NCBI RefSeq assembly: GCF_030651915.1
Contig: NZ_JAUSBV010000008.1
Location: 248,001 to 312,000, forward strand
Reading direction: 5' to 3'
DNA: 64,000 bases
Source: Parvibaculum sp.
Lineage (GTDB): Bacteria; Pseudomonadota; Alphaproteobacteria; Parvibaculales; Parvibaculaceae
Part shown: one piece after another, positions 14,023 to 21,400 of the stretch
How the letters are laid out: every line of letters starts with the position of its first letter
Position numbering within the stretch: position 1 is the first letter of the stretch
Notes under the pieces: generated by a model
What the model was told of the DNA's origin: nothing
Databases searched by the model: none
What the model saw: the letters and a program-made list of their open reading frames with translations, nothing else
Position numbers and translations under genes: made by a program

Positions 14023-15519
14023 ATGGGTGAACGGATTCTGGTGGTTGGCGGCGGCATCGCCGGTCTGTCGACCGTGCTGGCGCTGGCCCGCGCGGGCCGC
14101 GAAGTAACGATCCTCGAACGCGACCCGCCCCCGCCCGAGACCTCGGCCGACGAAGCCTTCGATCATTGGGAGCGCAAGGGCGTCGGCCATCTGCGTCACA
14201 GCCATGCATTCCTGGCACGACTGCACATGCTGATCCGCGACAATTATCCCGAGTTGATGAAAGATCTGCTGGCGGCCGGCTGCCGCGAGCTCGTCTTCGC
14301 CGACAATCTCTCTCACGCAATGCGCGCGCGCTACGTTCCGGCGCCGGGCGACAAGGACATGACGATCCTGACCAGCCGCCGTACGACGCTGGAACTGGTG
14401 ATGCGCCGCTATGCGGCACGCCAGCCCGGCATCCGCTTTGAGACCGGCGCGCTGGTGCGCGGTCTTCTGACCGACCGCGAAGACGGCAAGCTTCGCGTCA
14501 CCGGCGTCACGGTGGAGCAAAACGGCGCGCGGCGCGACTGGCCAGCCGATATCGTGATCGATGCTGCCGGAAAGAACAGTCAGGCCATCGACTGGCTCAA
14601 CGAGGCAGGCGCCGGCATCCCGGAAGAAAACGAGCGCGCGGGAATCCTCTATTTCACGCGACACTACCGGCTGCGGGACGGCGTTACGGAGCCCGAACGC
14701 GGCAAGGTACCCGGCGCAGGCGATCTCGGTTTTATCAAATATGGCGTGTTCCCCGCCGACAATGGCTGCTTCTCGATCACGCTGGCGGTGCCGGAGATCG
14801 AGATCGAAATACGCAAGGCCGTCGTGCGCCCCGAAATCTTCGACGGCATCTGTGCACAATTGCCGGGTATCGCCCGCTGGACCTCGCCCGAGACATCGCG
14901 ATCCGTCAGCCGCGTCTTCGGCATGGGCGAACTGATCAGCCGCTGGCGGCATCTGGCCGTGAAGGACGAGCCGCGTGTGCTCGGCTTTTTCCCGATCGGC
15001 GACAGTGTTATCCGCACCAATCCACTCTATGGACGCGGCTGCTCTTTCGCTGCCATCGCCGCCGAGGCGTTGCGCGATGCACTCGACCTGCCGGAAGCTG
15101 CCACGCGCGCCGTCTACTACCACAAGCGCCTCGCCGTCGATCTGCGTCAGTACTATGACGACATGGTCAAGCAGGATCTGTCAGCTATCAAGCGGGCGCG
15201 CAATGCGATCGATCCTGACTACAAACCGGGACTGAAGGCGCGGCTTATCAAGAGTTTTGCCGAAGACGCGATCACACCGGCGCTGCGCGGCGACGTCGAA
15301 TTGTTGCGCACTTTCATGCGCGCCTTTCATATGGTTGATCGTCCGAACCTGTGGCTGCGCGATCCGCGCAATATCGCCAAGATTCTGTTCACCTGGGCGC
15401 GCGGCAAGAAGCGCAATGCCGCGTATTATCCACCGAAACTCGGGCCCGATCGCGGCGAAATGCTGACGTCACTCGGACTGTCGCCAACCGCCGACGCGGA
15501 ACGGCTGAAGGCCGCATAG
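14023..15519 (+). CDS. FAD-dependent oxidoreductase (monooxygenase-like)
   Basis: 498 aa. N-terminal Rossmann motif VVGGGIAGLSTVLALARAG with the acidic end ILERD binds FAD ADP. A second FAD motif, GDSVIRTNPLYGRGCSFA around residue 325, matches the GD-motif of group A flavoprotein monooxygenases and geranylgeranyl-reductase-like enzymes. The substrate cannot be read out. The gene is followed 38 nt later by the epoxide hydrolase; an epoxidase/reductase plus hydrolase pair would be a coherent catabolic step (inference). A 22-bp palindrome precedes it. Confidence 0.85.
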   Translation: MGERILVVGGGIAGLSTVLALARAGREVTILERDPPPPETSADEAFDHWERKGVGHLRHSHAFLARLHMLIRDNYPELMKDLLAAGCRELVFADNLSHAMRARYVPAPGDKDMTILTSRRTTLELVMRRYAARQPGIRFETGALVRGLLTDREDGKLRVTGVTVEQNGARRDWPADIVIDAAGKNSQAIDWLNEAGAGIPEENERAGILYFTRHYRLRDGVTEPERGKVPGAGDLGFIKYGVFPADNGCFSITLAVPEIEIEIRKAVVRPEIFDGICAQLPGIARWTSPETSRSVSRVFGMGELISRWRHLAVKDEPRVLGFFPIGDSVIRTNPLYGRGCSFAAIAAEALRDALDLPEAATRAVYYHKRLAVDLRQYYDDMVKQDLSAIKRARNAIDPDYKPGLKARLIKSFAEDAITPALRGDVELLRTFMRAFHMVDRPNLWLRDPRNIAKILFTWARGKKRNAAYYPPKLGPDRGEMLTSLGLSPTADAERLKAA

Positions 15520-15557
15520 AAATCAAGCTTCCCTCCAAGCAGGAAAGAAACAGGGCG

Positions 15558-16529
15558 ATGAAATTTCCCGAGCCGCACTATGTCGAGACAAACGGCATCC
15601 GGATGGCCGTTTATGAGCAAGGCCCGAAAGACGGCGTGCCCATCGTGATGTGCCACGGGTTTCCGGAACTTGGCTACTCATGGCGTCATCAGCTTCCAGC
15701 CGTCGCGGGCGCGGGCTTCCGTGCCCTCGCGCCGGACCAGCGCGGCTACGGCAATACCGGCGGCCCGAAGGGGTCGGACGCAGTGCCGCTCTACGACATC
15801 GCCCATCTGACGGACGATCTGGCGGGGATGCTTGACGCTCTCGGCATCGACAAGGCCGTCTTCGCCGGACACGACTGGGGTGGCATGGTCACCTGGCAGA
15901 TGGCGCTGCGCCACCCGGACCGCGTCGCCGGCGTCATCGGCGTCAACACGCCCTTCATTCCGCGCGGTCCCATCGACCCGATCGCCGGAATGCGAATGGT
16001 TTTCGGCGAAGACATGTACATCGTCTATTTCCAGAAATTTGGCGTCGCGGAAAAGATTTTCGATACCGATGTCGCTCGCTCGATGCGCTTCTGGTACCGC
16101 AAGAGCGCGATGAAGCTCGCCGACTTCGATGCCCTGCCCGCCGACCAGAAGAACCTGTCGTTCCTGAAGTCCTTCGACGCCGACGAAAGCACCTGGCTCG
16201 GTACGCAGTTACTCAACAAGGAAGAGCTCGACTACTACACCCGGGCCTTCAAGAAGTCGGGCTTCGAAGGCGGCATCAACTGGTACCGCAACTTCACGCG
16301 CAACTGGCAACTGACCGAAGGTCAGACCGAAAAGATCGACGTTCCCTGCCTGATGATTTCGGCCGCCGACGACATCGTGCTCCGCCCCGAACTGACGGCC
16401 GGCATGGAGAACTACATCCCCGATCTCGAAAAGCACGTAATCGCCGATTGCGGCCACTGGACTCAATCGGAGAAGCCGGACGAGTTGAACCGGCTGATGG
16501 TCGATTGGCTGAAGCGTCGTTTCAGCTGA
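15558..16529 (+). CDS. Alpha/beta-hydrolase, epoxide hydrolase type
   Basis: 323 aa. Oxyanion motif HGFPE (around residue 33), nucleophile Asp in GHDWGGMVTW (around 105) and the catalytic His in CGHWTQSEKP (around 299). The Asp nucleophile and the cap-domain tyrosines (YYTRAF, WYRNF) are typical of soluble epoxide hydrolases, which open epoxides to diols. The frame extends upstream in the track to 15351, inside the preceding gene. ATG 15558 begins the conserved EPHYVETNGIRMAVYEQG. Likely cotranscribed with the FAD oxidoreductase. Confidence 0.9.
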   Translation: MKFPEPHYVETNGIRMAVYEQGPKDGVPIVMCHGFPELGYSWRHQLPAVAGAGFRALAPDQRGYGNTGGPKGSDAVPLYDIAHLTDDLAGMLDALGIDKAVFAGHDWGGMVTWQMALRHPDRVAGVIGVNTPFIPRGPIDPIAGMRMVFGEDMYIVYFQKFGVAEKIFDTDVARSMRFWYRKSAMKLADFDALPADQKNLSFLKSFDADESTWLGTQLLNKEELDYYTRAFKKSGFEGGINWYRNFTRNWQLTEGQTEKIDVPCLMISAADDIVLRPELTAGMENYIPDLEKHVIADCGHWTQSEKPDELNRLMVDWLKRRFS

Positions 16530-17632: not shown

Positions 17633-18991
17633 ATGTCGCAGGCGCTGGAGCGCAATGAGACGGATAACGCGCTGGCCGGGCCCGCGAAAAAATCCACAAC
17701 CGACGCACCGAAGCTCGCCGCCATTTCCGGCGACCGGCCGCTGCGCATCCTGCTGCCGAGCTATCGCTCGAACCCGACCACCGGCGGCCAGGGCGTCTAT
17801 ATGCGCCACATTGCCAAGGCACTGGTCGAACTCGGCCATCAAGTCGACGTGATCTCGGGTCCCCCCTATCCCGAAATCGACCCGCGCGTGAAGCTGATCA
17901 AGCTTCCCTCGCTCGACCTTTACGCCAATCCGCACCCGATCAAATCGATCCGGCCCTGGATGTTGGCCTCACCGATCGATCTTTTTGAATGGTGGAGCCA
18001 TGCGACCGGCGGTTTCTCCGAGCCCTACACCTTTTGCGCGCGCATGGCGCGCTACGTGCGCGGTACCATCGCGGATTACGATGTCTGCCACGACAATCAG
18101 ACGCTTGGCTGGGGCCTGCTGAAACTCCGCGATATGGGCCTGCCTATCGTCGGAACGATCCATCATCCGATCACAATGGACCGTCGTATCGATATCCAGC
18201 ATGCGAAAACACTATCGCTGAAGCTGCTGAAGCGGCGCTGGTACTCCTTCCTCAACATGCAGATCAAGGTGGCGCGGCAGCTCGACCCGCTGATCGTCGT
18301 CTCCGAGAGCACACGACGCGACGTTGTGCGCGAATTCGGCGTCGACGCGTCGAAAACGCGCCTCGTTCTGCACGGCATCGACCATCTGCAATTTCGCCCG
18401 ATGCCGCATGTGAAGCGGCGTGATGACCTGATCGTTGCCTGCGCCAGCGCCGACGTCCCACTGAAGGGTCTGATCTACTTGATCCGCGCCTATGCCGAAC
18501 TCCTGAAAACACGGCCTAACCTCAGGTTGAAAGTGATCGGGCGTTTGCGTGAAGGAAACACGACGGACGAACTCCGCGCTTTCGGTATCATGGACAAGGT
18601 GGAGTTCGTGACGGGGGTCACCGACGAGGATATCACCACGATCTACAACGAGGCGACCATCGCCGTGTCGCCCTCGGTCTATGAAGGCTTCGGCTTCCCC
18701 TGCGGTGAGGCCATGTCATGCGGGACGCCCGTCATCGCGACCGATGGCGGCTCGCTGCCCGAAGTCGTCGGCGATGCCGGCATCATTGTGCCGCATTCCA
18801 ATCCGCCGGCGCTCGCGCGCGCCATTGCCGCGATGCTCGACGATCCGGACATGCGGGCGCGCTACGGCGAGGCCGGGCGCGAGCGCATCCTCGCCAAATT
18901 CAAATGGGAACGTGCGGCGCGTGAATGCGTCGAGATATACAGGCAGACAATCGCAGATGCAGACCATCGACTTGAACGTGCTCGGGCTTAG
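17633..18991 (+). CDS. GT4-family (GT-B fold) glycosyltransferase
   Basis: 452 aa. N-terminal acceptor domain starts at LRILLPSYRSNPTTGGQGVYMRHIAKALVELG, with the glycine-rich GGQG loop; the C-terminal donor domain carries the EX7E motif as EGFGFPCGE (around residue 351), the signature of retaining GT4 enzymes. The first ~35 residues are a polar leader. The track's ORF is open from 16946, but ATG 17633 has GAGGAAAT upstream. The next gene begins inside its last 35 nt, so the four cluster genes are probably made together. Donor and acceptor are unknown; a sugar-modified lipid or surface glycan is likely. Confidence 0.9.
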   Translation: MSQALERNETDNALAGPAKKSTTDAPKLAAISGDRPLRILLPSYRSNPTTGGQGVYMRHIAKALVELGHQVDVISGPPYPEIDPRVKLIKLPSLDLYANPHPIKSIRPWMLASPIDLFEWWSHATGGFSEPYTFCARMARYVRGTIADYDVCHDNQTLGWGLLKLRDMGLPIVGTIHHPITMDRRIDIQHAKTLSLKLLKRRWYSFLNMQIKVARQLDPLIVVSESTRRDVVREFGVDASKTRLVLHGIDHLQFRPMPHVKRRDDLIVACASADVPLKGLIYLIRAYAELLKTRPNLRLKVIGRLREGNTTDELRAFGIMDKVEFVTGVTDEDITTIYNEATIAVSPSVYEGFGFPCGEAMSCGTPVIATDGGSLPEVVGDAGIIVPHSNPPALARAIAAMLDDPDMRARYGEAGRERILAKFKWERAARECVEIYRQTIADADHRLERARA

Positions 18992-19673
18992 GGACGGCCA
19001 GCGCGCGCTCGACCTCGGTTGTGGCGCCGGCAGGCATGTCCATGCCATGTATTACCACGCCGAATGCCACGTGGTCGGGATCGATCTCGGCTTCGAGGAC
19101 GTGAAGCGCACGCGCGACGGCTTCGGCACCTGCCCCGACATGGACCCCGAAACAAGGCGCGCCTTCTCGCTGTCGGTCGGCAATGCGCTGTCGCTGCCCT
19201 TTCCCGATGCGAGTTTCGACAAGATCGTTTGCTCCGAAGTGCTGGAACACATCCCGGACTACAAGCAGGCGGTCGCCGAAATCGACCGCATCCTGAAGCC
19301 CGGCGGCACACTTGCCATCAGCGTGCCCCGCTTCTTCCCCGAATGGGTGTGCTGGAAGCTTTCCGACGATTATCACAACGAACCGGGCGGCCATGTCCGC
19401 ATCTTTCAGGAGAGCGAACTGAAAGATGCCGTCGAGAAACGCGGACTCTCCTTCTTCCATCGTCATTTCGCGCATGGCCTGCATTCGCCTTACTGGTGGT
19501 TGAAATGCGCCGTCGGCGTGAAGCGTGAGGATGTGCGCCTCGTCAATCTCTACAAGCGCTTTCTCGAATGGGACATTCTCGAGGGCCCGTGGCTGACACG
19601 GACACTTGAAAAGCTCGCCGGACCGCTGATGGGCAAGAGCGTCGTTCTCTATTTCACCAAGGGAGCGGCGTGA
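18957..19673 (+). CDS. Class I SAM-dependent methyltransferase (Methyltransf_11 type)
   Basis: 238 aa. SAM-binding motif I ALDLGCGAGRHVHAM near residue 20, acidic ribose contact VVGIDLG, motif with GNALSLPFPDASFDKIVCSEVLEHI, and ILKPGGTLAISVPRF. The rest has aromatic and basic residues suited to a bulky substrate. ATG 18957 lies 35 nt before the glycosyltransferase stop. Its own stop forms TGATG with the next start. Probable O- or N-methylation of the product of the adjacent glycosyltransferase (inference). Confidence 0.9.
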   Translation: MQTIDLNVLGLRDGQRALDLGCGAGRHVHAMYYHAECHVVGIDLGFEDVKRTRDGFGTCPDMDPETRRAFSLSVGNALSLPFPDASFDKIVCSEVLEHIPDYKQAVAEIDRILKPGGTLAISVPRFFPEWVCWKLSDDYHNEPGGHVRIFQESELKDAVEKRGLSFFHRHFAHGLHSPYWWLKCAVGVKREDVRLVNLYKRFLEWDILEGPWLTRTLEKLAGPLMGKSVVLYFTKGAA

Positions 19674-20758
19674 TGGTGCATCTGACCTGGGGCGACCCGG
19701 TCCCGGATGATTTTTTCGCAGGCTCGCAAGCGCGCATTATGGAGTTGCAGCGCGATAACGGCGCAATCCCCTGGTATGACGGCGGCGTCATCGACCCGTG
19801 GAACCACACCGAAGCCGCGATGGGCCTGACCGTGCTCGGCGAAATCGAGCATGCGCGCCGCGCCTTCCGCTATCTCACCGAGACGCAGTTGAAGGACGGA
19901 TCGTGGTGGGGCCAGCTCGGTTCCGCCGTTCCCTTCGACGACGACGAACAACGCTTCACCGGCGAGGAACACGAAGCGGGCCATCACATCCGCGACACCA
20001 ATTTCGCCGCTTACATCGCGACCGGTGCCTGGCATCACTATCTCGTCACGCGCGACCGCAAATGGCTGGCAGGCATCTGGCCGCATGTGAAGGCCGCGAT
20101 CTCCTTTGTGCTGGCGCATCAGAGCCCGCATGGCGACATCCGCTGGTCGGCCGCCGATCCGCACACGCCGGAGGACGACGCGCTGATCACCGGCTGTTCC
20201 TCGATTTACAAGAGCCTCGAATGCGCCGCCCACATCGCACGCGAACTGGGCGAACCGTCGCGCGACTGGCTGGCCGCACGCGCCCGTCTCGGCGAGGCGC
20301 TGCGCGACAAGCCGCACCGCTTCGATCGCACCTGGGAGCCGAAGGACCGCTATTCGATGGACTGGTACTACCCCGTCCTCGCCGGCGTCGTCACCGGCGA
20401 AGCGGCCCGGAAGCGCCTCGACTGGAAATGGGACATCTTCGTCGCCGACGGCAAGGGCTGCCGCTGCGTGCTCGACCAACCCTGGGTGACGGTCGCCGAA
20501 AGCGCAGAGCTGACCATGGCGCTGCTGGTCGCCGGACGGCGCAAGGAAGCCGAGGCGATGCTCTCCTGGCAGCACCAATGGCGCGCCGATTGCGGCGCCT
20601 ACTGGATGGGCTATCAGTTCGAGGACGATGTAGCCTGGCCGGCCGAGAAGCCGGCATGGACGGCCGCCGCCGTTATCCTGGCGACCGACGCCGTGACCGG
20701 CATGACGCCTGCCGCCCGCCTCTTCGCCGAGCGCACGCTAGCCGAGGCGGCGGAGTAG
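19673..20758 (+). CDS. Alpha/alpha-barrel protein (prenyltransferase/six-hairpin glycosidase-like)
   Basis: 361 aa with repeated helical hairpins and conserved acidic or aromatic patches (DPWNHTEAAMGLTVLGE, DTNFAAYIATGAWHHYL, DDALITGCSSIYKSLECA, DDVAWPAEKPAWTAAAVI). This resembles the (alpha/alpha)6 barrels that are often labelled 'prenyltransferase' or six-hairpin glycosidases. No catalytic pair can be assigned safely. ATG 19673 overlaps the upstream stop (TGATG); the GTG at 19670 is the alternative. The 3' end overlaps the convergent methyltransferase by 21 nt. Confidence 0.8.
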   Translation: MVHLTWGDPVPDDFFAGSQARIMELQRDNGAIPWYDGGVIDPWNHTEAAMGLTVLGEIEHARRAFRYLTETQLKDGSWWGQLGSAVPFDDDEQRFTGEEHEAGHHIRDTNFAAYIATGAWHHYLVTRDRKWLAGIWPHVKAAISFVLAHQSPHGDIRWSAADPHTPEDDALITGCSSIYKSLECAAHIARELGEPSRDWLAARARLGEALRDKPHRFDRTWEPKDRYSMDWYYPVLAGVVTGEAARKRLDWKWDIFVADGKGCRCVLDQPWVTVAESAELTMALLVAGRRKEAEAMLSWQHQWRADCGAYWMGYQFEDDVAWPAEKPAWTAAAVILATDAVTGMTPAARLFAERTLAEAAE

Positions 20759-21400
20759 CCTGAGGCTCTTCACGGCCTTCTCGTCCTCAAACAGCTTCGA
20801 AGCCAGCGCCATCTTGTAAATCTCGTAGGGCGGCCGGCCGCCGTCCTTCGGATCGGGGAAGACGTCGTGAATGGCGAGGATGCCACCCGGCATCACGCGC
20901 GGCGCCCAGAGGCGGTAGTCTGTCAGCGCCGGTTCCATGCCGTGGCCGCCATCGATGAACACCATCGCCAGCGGCGTCGCCCAGCCCTTCGAGGCGACTT
21001 CGGACGGTGCCACAAGCGGCACCACCGTGTCTTCAAGCTTCGCCAGGCGCATCGTCCGGCGGAACAGCGGAAAGGTGTTGAGGCGGCCGGTCTCGGCATC
21101 ATGGAGCGCCGCGTCGTGATGCTCCCAGCCCTGCTGGTTCTCCTCCGAGCCGTAGTGATGGTCGAGCGCGTAGAGGACGGCGTTGTTGGCCTGGCAGGCG
21201 GCGCCAATATAGACCGTCGACTTGCCGCAATAGGAGCCGATCTCGAGCACCGGGCCGCGCCGCGAGGCTTCCAGCGCCGCCTCATGCAGCGCCCAACCCT
21301 CTTCCGCGTCCATGAAACCCTTGACCGTCTCGATATCGATGGGGAGTTCGCGCGCCAAAATCCGGTCCTTTCGCCTCGCCGGAACGCCCGGCCCCGCCAT
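20738..21400 (-). CDS. Class I SAM-dependent methyltransferase (Methyltransf_24 type)
   Basis: 220 aa. Motif I is VLEIGSYCGKSTVYIGAA, followed by LYALDHHYGSEENQQGWEHHD, VFIDGGHGMEPALTDYRLW and PGGILAIHDVFPDP, the pattern of Methyltransf_24/cephalosporin-hydroxylase-like O-methyltransferases with a metal-binding Asp/His set. It is on the opposite strand to the glycosyltransferase unit and overlaps its last gene by 21 nt. I treat it as part of the same functional cluster because of this tight convergent packing (inference). Confidence 0.88.
   Translation of the reverse strand: MAGPGVPARRKDRILARELPIDIETVKGFMDAEEGWALHEAALEASRRGPVLEIGSYCGKSTVYIGAACQANNAVLYALDHHYGSEENQQGWEHHDAALHDAETGRLNTFPLFRRTMRLAKLEDTVVPLVAPSEVASKGWATPLAMVFIDGGHGMEPALTDYRLWAPRVMPGGILAIHDVFPDPKDGGRPPYEIYKMALASKLFEDEKAVKSLRLLRRLG

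Follow-up and report, generated by a model that had tools for sequence, protein, structure and literature searches.

What is made by a compact locus in the alphaproteobacterium Parvibaculum, where a GT4 glycosyltransferase, two methyltransferases and an alpha-alpha-barrel protein are packed together? The locus lies in a window of 64,000 nucleotides, that is, the whole stretch of DNA analyzed here. A sequence-only reading had described four ORFs with overlapping junctions, and the coordinates bore this out. As shown in the table, manT and pmeT3 overlap by 35 nt (18957-18991), pmeT3 and mmpH are joined by TGATG (TGA at 19671-19673, ATG at 19673-19675), and mmpH and meT1 are convergent, with their ends overlapping by 21 nt (20738-20758). 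For pmeT3, the ATG at 18957 is preferred as the start, with an in-frame ATG at 18951 also possible; the exact start of meT1 is uncertain.

Coordinates of the four-gene locus in the window and of a co-occurring gene elsewhere in the same genome
Feature	Position	Strand	Basis
GT4 ORF (manT)	17633-18991	+	Pfam PF00534/PF13439
First methyltransferase ORF (pmeT3)	18957-19673	+	Pfam Methyltransf_11
Barrel protein ORF (mmpH)	19673-20758	+	phmmer and fold match to 7qsj
Second methyltransferase ORF (meT1)	21400-20738	-	Pfam Methyltransf_24
Hexapeptide acyltransferase (outside the window)	G000:C5:381597-382316	-	Phyletic profile

The earlier reading knew of no described pathway with such a gene set, but the mycobacterial cluster for 3-O-methylmannose polysaccharide (MMP) contains exactly these four genes; in M. 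hassiacum, manT-pmeT3-mmpH-meT1 correspond to MHAS_04402 to 04405 (PMC9883506). MMP of M. hassiacum consists of 11-14 alpha-1,4-linked 3-O-methylmannoses with a 1-O-methylated reducing end (PMC9883506). It is a small, cytoplasmic polysaccharide thought to carry fatty acids, and its purpose is debated between fatty-acid handling and cold adaptation. Chemically, MMP is known only from mycobacteria and, in an acetylated form (AMMP), from Streptomyces. No report of proteobacterial MMP was found in the open-access literature, where the published surveys that we found cover Actinobacteria only; an earlier report elsewhere is possible.

The one-for-one match of the four genes, in the same order as those of the mycobacterial MMP enzymes, indicates that Parvibaculum and many other, often marine, proteobacteria probably make MMP too. 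We consider it highly likely that the four genes serve to synthesize and recycle an MMP-type methylmannose polysaccharide in the cytoplasm of Parvibaculum, a product and a role that we infer from the genes. The basis of this assignment is the orthology of ManT, MmpH and MeT1, the gene order, the catalytic residues, the co-occurrence of the genes and the supply of GDP-mannose. It is thus a known system in new hosts, with one candidate new part, an acyltransferase.

Enzymes encoded by the locus

ManT matched 7qsg (M. hassiacum ManT) best by a wide margin in phmmer (E 4e-102, residues 28-441). Its His142, Lys240, Glu313 and Glu321 correspond to H177, K278, E351 and E359 of the window protein and are invariant in 105 sequences, and the product is a predicted GT4 alpha-(1->4)-mannosyltransferase whose donor would be GDP-mannose. 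A ManC encoded in the same genome (TIGR01479, 662 bits) indicated that this donor is supplied. The best phmmer match of MeT1, again by a wide margin, was 6g7d, which we take to be M. hassiacum MeT1 (E 1e-57, residues 24-218), with 6g80 and 6h40 also matched. D141-GGH144 and H169-D170 are invariant, and D141, H144, H169 and D170 presumably form the metal site; meT1 is predicted to encode the MMP reducing-end 1-O-methyltransferase. pMeT3 matched Methyltransf_11 (E 3e-22, Pfam), and the nearest folds to its AF2 model (pLDDT 91) were the sugar O-methyltransferases RebM and AtmM. Its position matches that in the M. hassiacum and Nonomuraea clusters, and it is linked to MmpH in all loci but a few. 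We regard it as a class I SAM methyltransferase and a putative 3-O-methyltransferase, a regiospecificity that is putative in mycobacteria as well (PMC9883506).

The barrel protein had only a sub-threshold GH95 match in Pfam. In phmmer, its best match by a wide margin was 7qsj, the solved M. hassiacum MmpH (E 1.3e-83, about 41% identity), and its AF2 model (pLDDT 91) superposed on 7qsj with TM scores of 0.88/0.92 (E 6e-33; next best fold E 6e-9). Asp47, Glu262, Glu265 and Trp315 of MmpH correspond to D42, E277, E280 and W330 in the window (numbered from GTG 19670) and are invariant in 118 sequences, indicating that the catalytic base Glu262 and the candidate acid Asp47 are both kept. The subsite-lining Trp49, Asn101, Met215, Tyr219, Glu262, Glu265 and Trp315 are conserved or nearly so. 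By sequence and model, the mmpH product is predicted to be an (alpha/alpha)6-barrel MMP endomannosidase. GH15 and GH125 glycosidases share its fold and the position of the catalytic base, but they have 8-13% sequence identity to M. hassiacum MmpH, and the GH125 relatives are exo-acting (PMC9883506).

Asp50 of MmpH is replaced by Asn in the window, in almost all Alphaproteobacteria and in the actinobacterium Nonomuraea, while it is Asp elsewhere. Which Asp acts as the catalytic acid was not settled in the structure paper, in which the activity of M. hassiacum D50A was drastically reduced, to a nearly dead enzyme (PMC9883506). The natural Asn would be in keeping with Asp47 acting as the acid, more than with a loss of function. 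As a marker of Alphaproteobacteria alone the replacement was rejected, because Nonomuraea carries Asn and one alphaproteobacterial genome (G076) carries Asp.

The sequence-only reading had proposed a methylated glycoconjugate, perhaps a polyprenyl- or hopanoid-linked sugar, with the barrel as a cyclase, transferase or hydrolase. The barrel is indeed weakly similar to squalene-hopene cyclases (sequence E about 1e-3, fold E 2e-7), which like MmpH are alpha-alpha barrels. However, the E value for MmpH was lower by about 80 orders of magnitude in the sequence comparison and by about 25 in the fold comparison, and Asp47 and Glu262 are conserved; a hopanoid, squalene-hopene or terpene cyclase or a prenyltransferase was therefore rejected. 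None of the cluster proteins has a signal peptide or, by hydropathy, a strong membrane segment. With proteins that look cytosolic and a barrel whose nearest relative in both sequence and fold is MmpH, nothing points to a polyprenyl or hopanoid acceptor, and a lipid-linked sugar has a negligible probability. The methylated glycan and the hydrolase survive from that proposal; the lipid acceptor, the cyclase and the transferase do not.

By orthology to M. hassiacum, MmpH would cut mature MMP into primers of 4-5 and 7-8 units. MeT1 would cap the newly made reducing ends, ManT would add mannose from GDP-mannose at the non-reducing ends, and pMeT3 would methylate every added mannose at O3. The outcome would be two daughter chains, and hence a partially conservative replication of the polymer.

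The Parvibaculum cluster shares with the mycobacterial one the four genes, their order, the catalytic residues of MmpH and ManT and the MmpH fold. In contrast, its host is an alphaproteobacterium, its product is a predicted one, and a co-occurring hexapeptide acyltransferase is encoded elsewhere in the genome. Further differences, the MmpH identity of about 41% to M. hassiacum and the change of Asp50 to Asn within the alphaproteobacterial clade, would also suit a related cytosolic methylated alpha-glycan made by the same enzyme logic but differing in sugar, linkage or methyl position. The same applies to position 293 of ManT (guanine contact), which is variable across the set although Asp293 is kept in the window protein, and to the regiospecificity of pMeT3, putative in every host. 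On the other hand, the MmpH subsite residues are otherwise conserved or nearly so, and all four enzymes, the MMP-specific MeT1 included, are kept together. We therefore judge such a different polymer to be unlikely.

Co-inheritance of the four genes

Of 41 loci from relatives, 39 had the complete order ManT, MeT3, MmpH and convergent MeT1, and the remaining two were truncated by the end of a contig; among 80 named loci, the order was complete in 62. This indicates that the arrangement is not due to chance. The Nonomuraea locus likewise has the same four-gene order with a convergent MeT1. Among 385 Alphaproteobacteria, the genomes with MmpH and those with MeT1 were the identical 34. A loss of MeT1 where it is not adjacent was rejected, because the gene was found elsewhere in the genome in 8/8 such bacteria. 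Furthermore, the divergences of the four families correlate (r 0.68-0.82). Rare co-occurrence in other genomes had been named beforehand as a result that would refute the sequence-only reading; the search across genomes found near-perfect co-occurrence instead, and the genes form one unit. The cluster is spread patchily in Alpha-, Gamma- and Deltaproteobacteria and also occurs in some haloarchaea, with two weak phylum matches (E about 1e-3) and G349 (E 3e-4) counted as unrelated barrels.

Across the flanks of 117 loci, the four families alone recurred; the window operon has no fifth gene, and the genes on either side of it are not widely shared among the loci. A hydrolase gene at 15351-16529 was present in 27 loci, but in only 7 of the 80 named loci. 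A 3-O-methylmannan can also be a surface glycan, as in the O-chain of alpha-1,2-linked 3-O-methylmannose of the alphaproteobacterium Oligotropha carboxidovorans (PMC9883506), and the genes might accordingly decorate, for example, an O-antigen. Nevertheless, the neighbourhoods of the 117 loci show no recurring transporter, flippase, ligase or acceptor-priming gene, the proteins look cytosolic, and the polymer-specific endo-hydrolase is always kept, which makes surface decoration very improbable.

A candidate acyltransferase and the meaning of the new hosts

A phyletic profile pointed to a hexapeptide acyltransferase, present in 28 of 34 MMP-positive Alphaproteobacteria (including Parvibaculum) and in none of 351 MMP-negative ones. 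It was also found in 13 of 14 further bacterial MMP-positive genomes (one of them, G771, known beforehand to have it), and full-length matches in the phylum sample occurred in MMP-positive genomes only. The gene is usually far from the cluster; its neighbours in Alphaproteobacteria, where unlinked, included nothing conserved that points to MMP, and no homologue lies between Nonomuraea MmpH and MeT1. Among solved structures, the encoded protein is closest to maltose and galactoside O-acetyltransferases, and it may O-acetylate or otherwise acylate the MMP-type polymer.

The predicted backbone is that of Streptomyces griseus AMMP, and an acetyltransferase-like gene tracks the proteobacterial cluster; the enzyme acetylating AMMP is not named in the open-access literature that we found. 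Mycobacterial 6-O-methylglucose lipopolysaccharide (MGLP) is likewise a cytosolic, polymethylated, lipid-binding polysaccharide, and Rv3034c of its cluster is suspected of acylating it. Unlike MMP, MGLP is glucose-based and has its own glycosyltransferase, branching and priming enzymes.

In Parvibaculum, MMP may bind long acyl-CoA or fatty acids, a plausible role for an organism that degrades alkanes and surfactants. We propose, at evenly balanced confidence, that MMP-type polysaccharides are widespread unrecognised cytosolic acyl carriers in Proteobacteria (Parvibaculum, OCS116, Halieaceae, SAR86, SAR324, syntrophs) and in some haloarchaea, and that the proteobacterial version needs the fifth, usually unlinked hexapeptide O-acyltransferase to yield an acylated MMP, possibly the missing enzyme type behind acetylated MMP.

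MMP has so far been studied as a mycobacterial speciality, and its complete, co-inherited cluster is now found in environmental and marine proteobacteria. The natural Asp50-to-Asn change in MmpH bears on which Asp is the catalytic acid, and the phyletic profile names a specific candidate for an acylation step lacking an assigned enzyme. The new hosts include a non-pathogenic organism that degrades alkanes and surfactants and whose type strain has been sequenced; in them, the role of MMP becomes testable in cells that lack the mycobacterial envelope and perhaps also MGLP.

Identity and layout of the four genes

The four proteins of the cluster were compared by sequence with all PDB chains. The opposed methyltransferase matched only 6g7d (E 1e-57), which we take to be MeT1 from a 2019 paper, and the barrel protein best matched 7qsj (E 1.3e-83; runner-up, 1e-3), titled 'Methylmannose polysaccharide hydrolase (MmpH)' and derived from M. 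hassiacum. The GT4 protein best matched 7qsg (E 4e-102; runner-up, 4e-25), which is generically named in its PDB file, but whose numbering and residues agree with the ManT structure of Maranha et al. 2023 (PMC9883506). No close solved relative of the remaining methyltransferase was found among the PDB chains; its position in the cluster matches that of the putative pMeT3. The same study described the 3-O-methylmannose polysaccharide (MMP) cluster, in which MHAS_04402 to 04405 encode, in that sequence, ManT (an alpha-1,4-mannosyltransferase), pMeT3 (the presumed 3-O-methyltransferase), MmpH (an endomannosidase cutting mature MMP into primers), and MeT1 (the reducing-end capping enzyme). The window has the same gene order as M. 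hassiacum, as does an actinobacterial Nonomuraea locus, where MeT1 is likewise convergent. The sequence-only reading had known no described pathway with this set; the MMP cluster is such a pathway, and the suggested polyprenyl- or hopanoid-linked sugar is unsupported. By its genes, the cluster is assigned to the MMP pathway.

The sequence confirms all four ORFs, as well as the overlap of 35 nt, the TGATG junction, and the convergent overlap of 21 nt. GC content of the cluster (63.7%) equals that of the window (63.4%), giving no mark of recent foreign origin. None of the four proteins reached the cut-off of a curated NCBIfam model, so databases will give them generic names.

Features of the MMP cluster, its neighbors, and associated genes
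Feature	Location	Strand	Remark
ManT	window 17633-18991	+	
pMeT3	window 18957-19673	+	
MmpH	window 19673-20758	+	
MeT1	window 21400-20738	-	
FAD-dependent oxidoreductase	window 14023-15519		weakly similar to geranylgeranyl reductase and monooxygenase models
Alpha/beta hydrolase (epoxide hydrolase-like)	window 15351-16529		upstream of cluster; relatives near cluster in 27 loci, 7 named
Acyltransferase, window's genome	G000:C5:381597-382316	-	other contig than cluster
Acyltransferase family, other loci	L184, L190; L151:6899-7699; L162-L164		
B12-binding radical SAM protein	L157:3867-5504; L151:7704-9275	+; +	adjoins acyltransferase, between MmpH and MeT1
manT-pmeT3-mmpH cluster, Natrinema gari	L138 3850-6999		

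Predicted structures and active sites

Structure prediction of the barrel protein, proposed in the sequence-only reading, gave an AlphaFold2 model (pLDDT 91) with the fold of MmpH 7qsj (TM 0.88/0.92, E 6e-33; second-best fold only E 6e-9). The pMeT3 model (pLDDT 91) was a class I methyltransferase nearest to RebM and AtmM, which are natural-product sugar O-methyltransferases. ManT His142, Lys240, Glu313, and Glu321 (M. hassiacum numbering) were invariant (105 sequences), and MeT1 retained D141-GGH144 and H169-D170. Among 118 MmpH sequences, Asp47, Trp49, Met215, Tyr219, Glu262, Glu265, and Trp315 were invariant, and Asn101 almost so. Whether Asp47 or Asp50 is the MmpH general acid was left undecided (PMC9883506). 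Asp50 is Asn in the window and in 54 sequences of the MmpH set, which lie in the alphaproteobacterial clade by the tree; with Nonomuraea carrying Asn as well, the tree requires two changes at this position. If the Asn50 enzymes are active, Asp47 would be the better general-acid candidate.

Co-inheritance and distribution

At least 589 relatives turned up when the genome contigs of GTDB were scanned. The four genes were complete in a single order in 62 of the 80 best-matching loci, supporting the conserved neighborhood for which a search had been suggested; the others were mostly cut by contig ends or had MeT1 elsewhere. Among nine genomes without MeT1 near the cluster, it was located elsewhere in all eight bacteria (8/8) and was not found in the ninth, the haloarchaeon. 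ORF clustering around 117 loci showed the four families as the sole ones common throughout, and the pairwise divergences of the four proteins were correlated (r 0.68-0.82). In a quick tree of the concatenated proteins, Deltaproteobacteria formed a single clade and Alphaproteobacteria almost did, with genome G076 outlying and one Pseudomonadota-only record inside. Therefore, inheritance within classes looks mainly vertical.

MmpH occurred in 23 of 25 Parvibaculum genomes (the two without it being 74% and 88% complete), in 5/399 of the phylum sample, including the window's genome, and in 11/146 genomes of the haloarchaeal class. In 385 evenly drawn Alphaproteobacteria, MmpH was present in 34, a further match at E 3e-4 being discounted, and MeT1 in the identical 34, spanning 12 family codes (naive Fisher p 2e-49, which ignores relatedness). 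The best 80 relatives include OCS116, Halieaceae, Luminiphilus, SAR86, Zhongshania, Endozoicomonas, Microbulbifer, SAR324, Syntrophaceae, Smithella, and the haloarchaeon Natrinema gari, in whose genome neither MeT1 nor an acyltransferase homologue was found. The accessible literature, whose surveys cover Actinobacteria only, gives no report of the MMP pathway in Proteobacteria.

A candidate fifth component and the host

A hexapeptide-repeat acyltransferase of one family adjoins the cluster in 23 examined loci. These comprise deltaproteobacterial and SAR324 loci, several from Gammaproteobacteria, and three from Alphaproteobacteria; three of the 23 carry an unlinked MeT1 gene, and there the acyltransferase adjoins MeT1. 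At a cut-off of E 1e-30, it was found in 28/34 MMP-positive versus 0/351 other genomes of the same 385 Alphaproteobacteria (naive p 5e-37); the positive genomes represent 10 of the 12 family codes. Another 15 cluster-bearing genomes were searched, and 13 had the gene, a small SAR86 genome and the haloarchaeon giving no match. Full-length matches in the phylum sample were confined to MMP-positive genomes; the remaining ones (E about 1e-20 to 1e-24) mostly covered the hexapeptide region of ordinary acetyltransferases. The gene is usually unlinked to the MMP cluster, yet its presence tracks the cluster across Proteobacteria. The solved structures closest to it are those of maltose and galactoside O-acetyltransferases, and its D-W-H122 motif is almost invariant (65 relatives). 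Acetylated MMP is known in Streptomyces griseus (PMC9883506), and Rv3034c is suspected in acylation of the related MGLP (PMC4555173). From these observations together, we propose the protein as a candidate MMP O-acyltransferase. In several deltaproteobacterial loci, a neighboring B12-binding radical SAM protein may add a further modification.

The acyltransferase and the Asp50 substitution make the window system a variant of the MMP pathway. The host is a Parvibaculum, and GDP-mannose pyrophosphorylase is encoded in the window's genome (TIGR01479, 662 bits). Several cluster holders have names suggesting that they use hydrocarbons or fatty acids (Zhongshania aliphaticivorans, Aestuariicella hydrocarbonica, Smithella, Parvibaculum), and a link of the cluster to such a lifestyle is possible from these names. 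Growth of Parvibaculum lavamentivorans is supported by alkanes, alkanoates, and surfactants, and by none of the sugars tried (PMC3368416), a range that would suit a fatty-acyl-binding polysaccharide.
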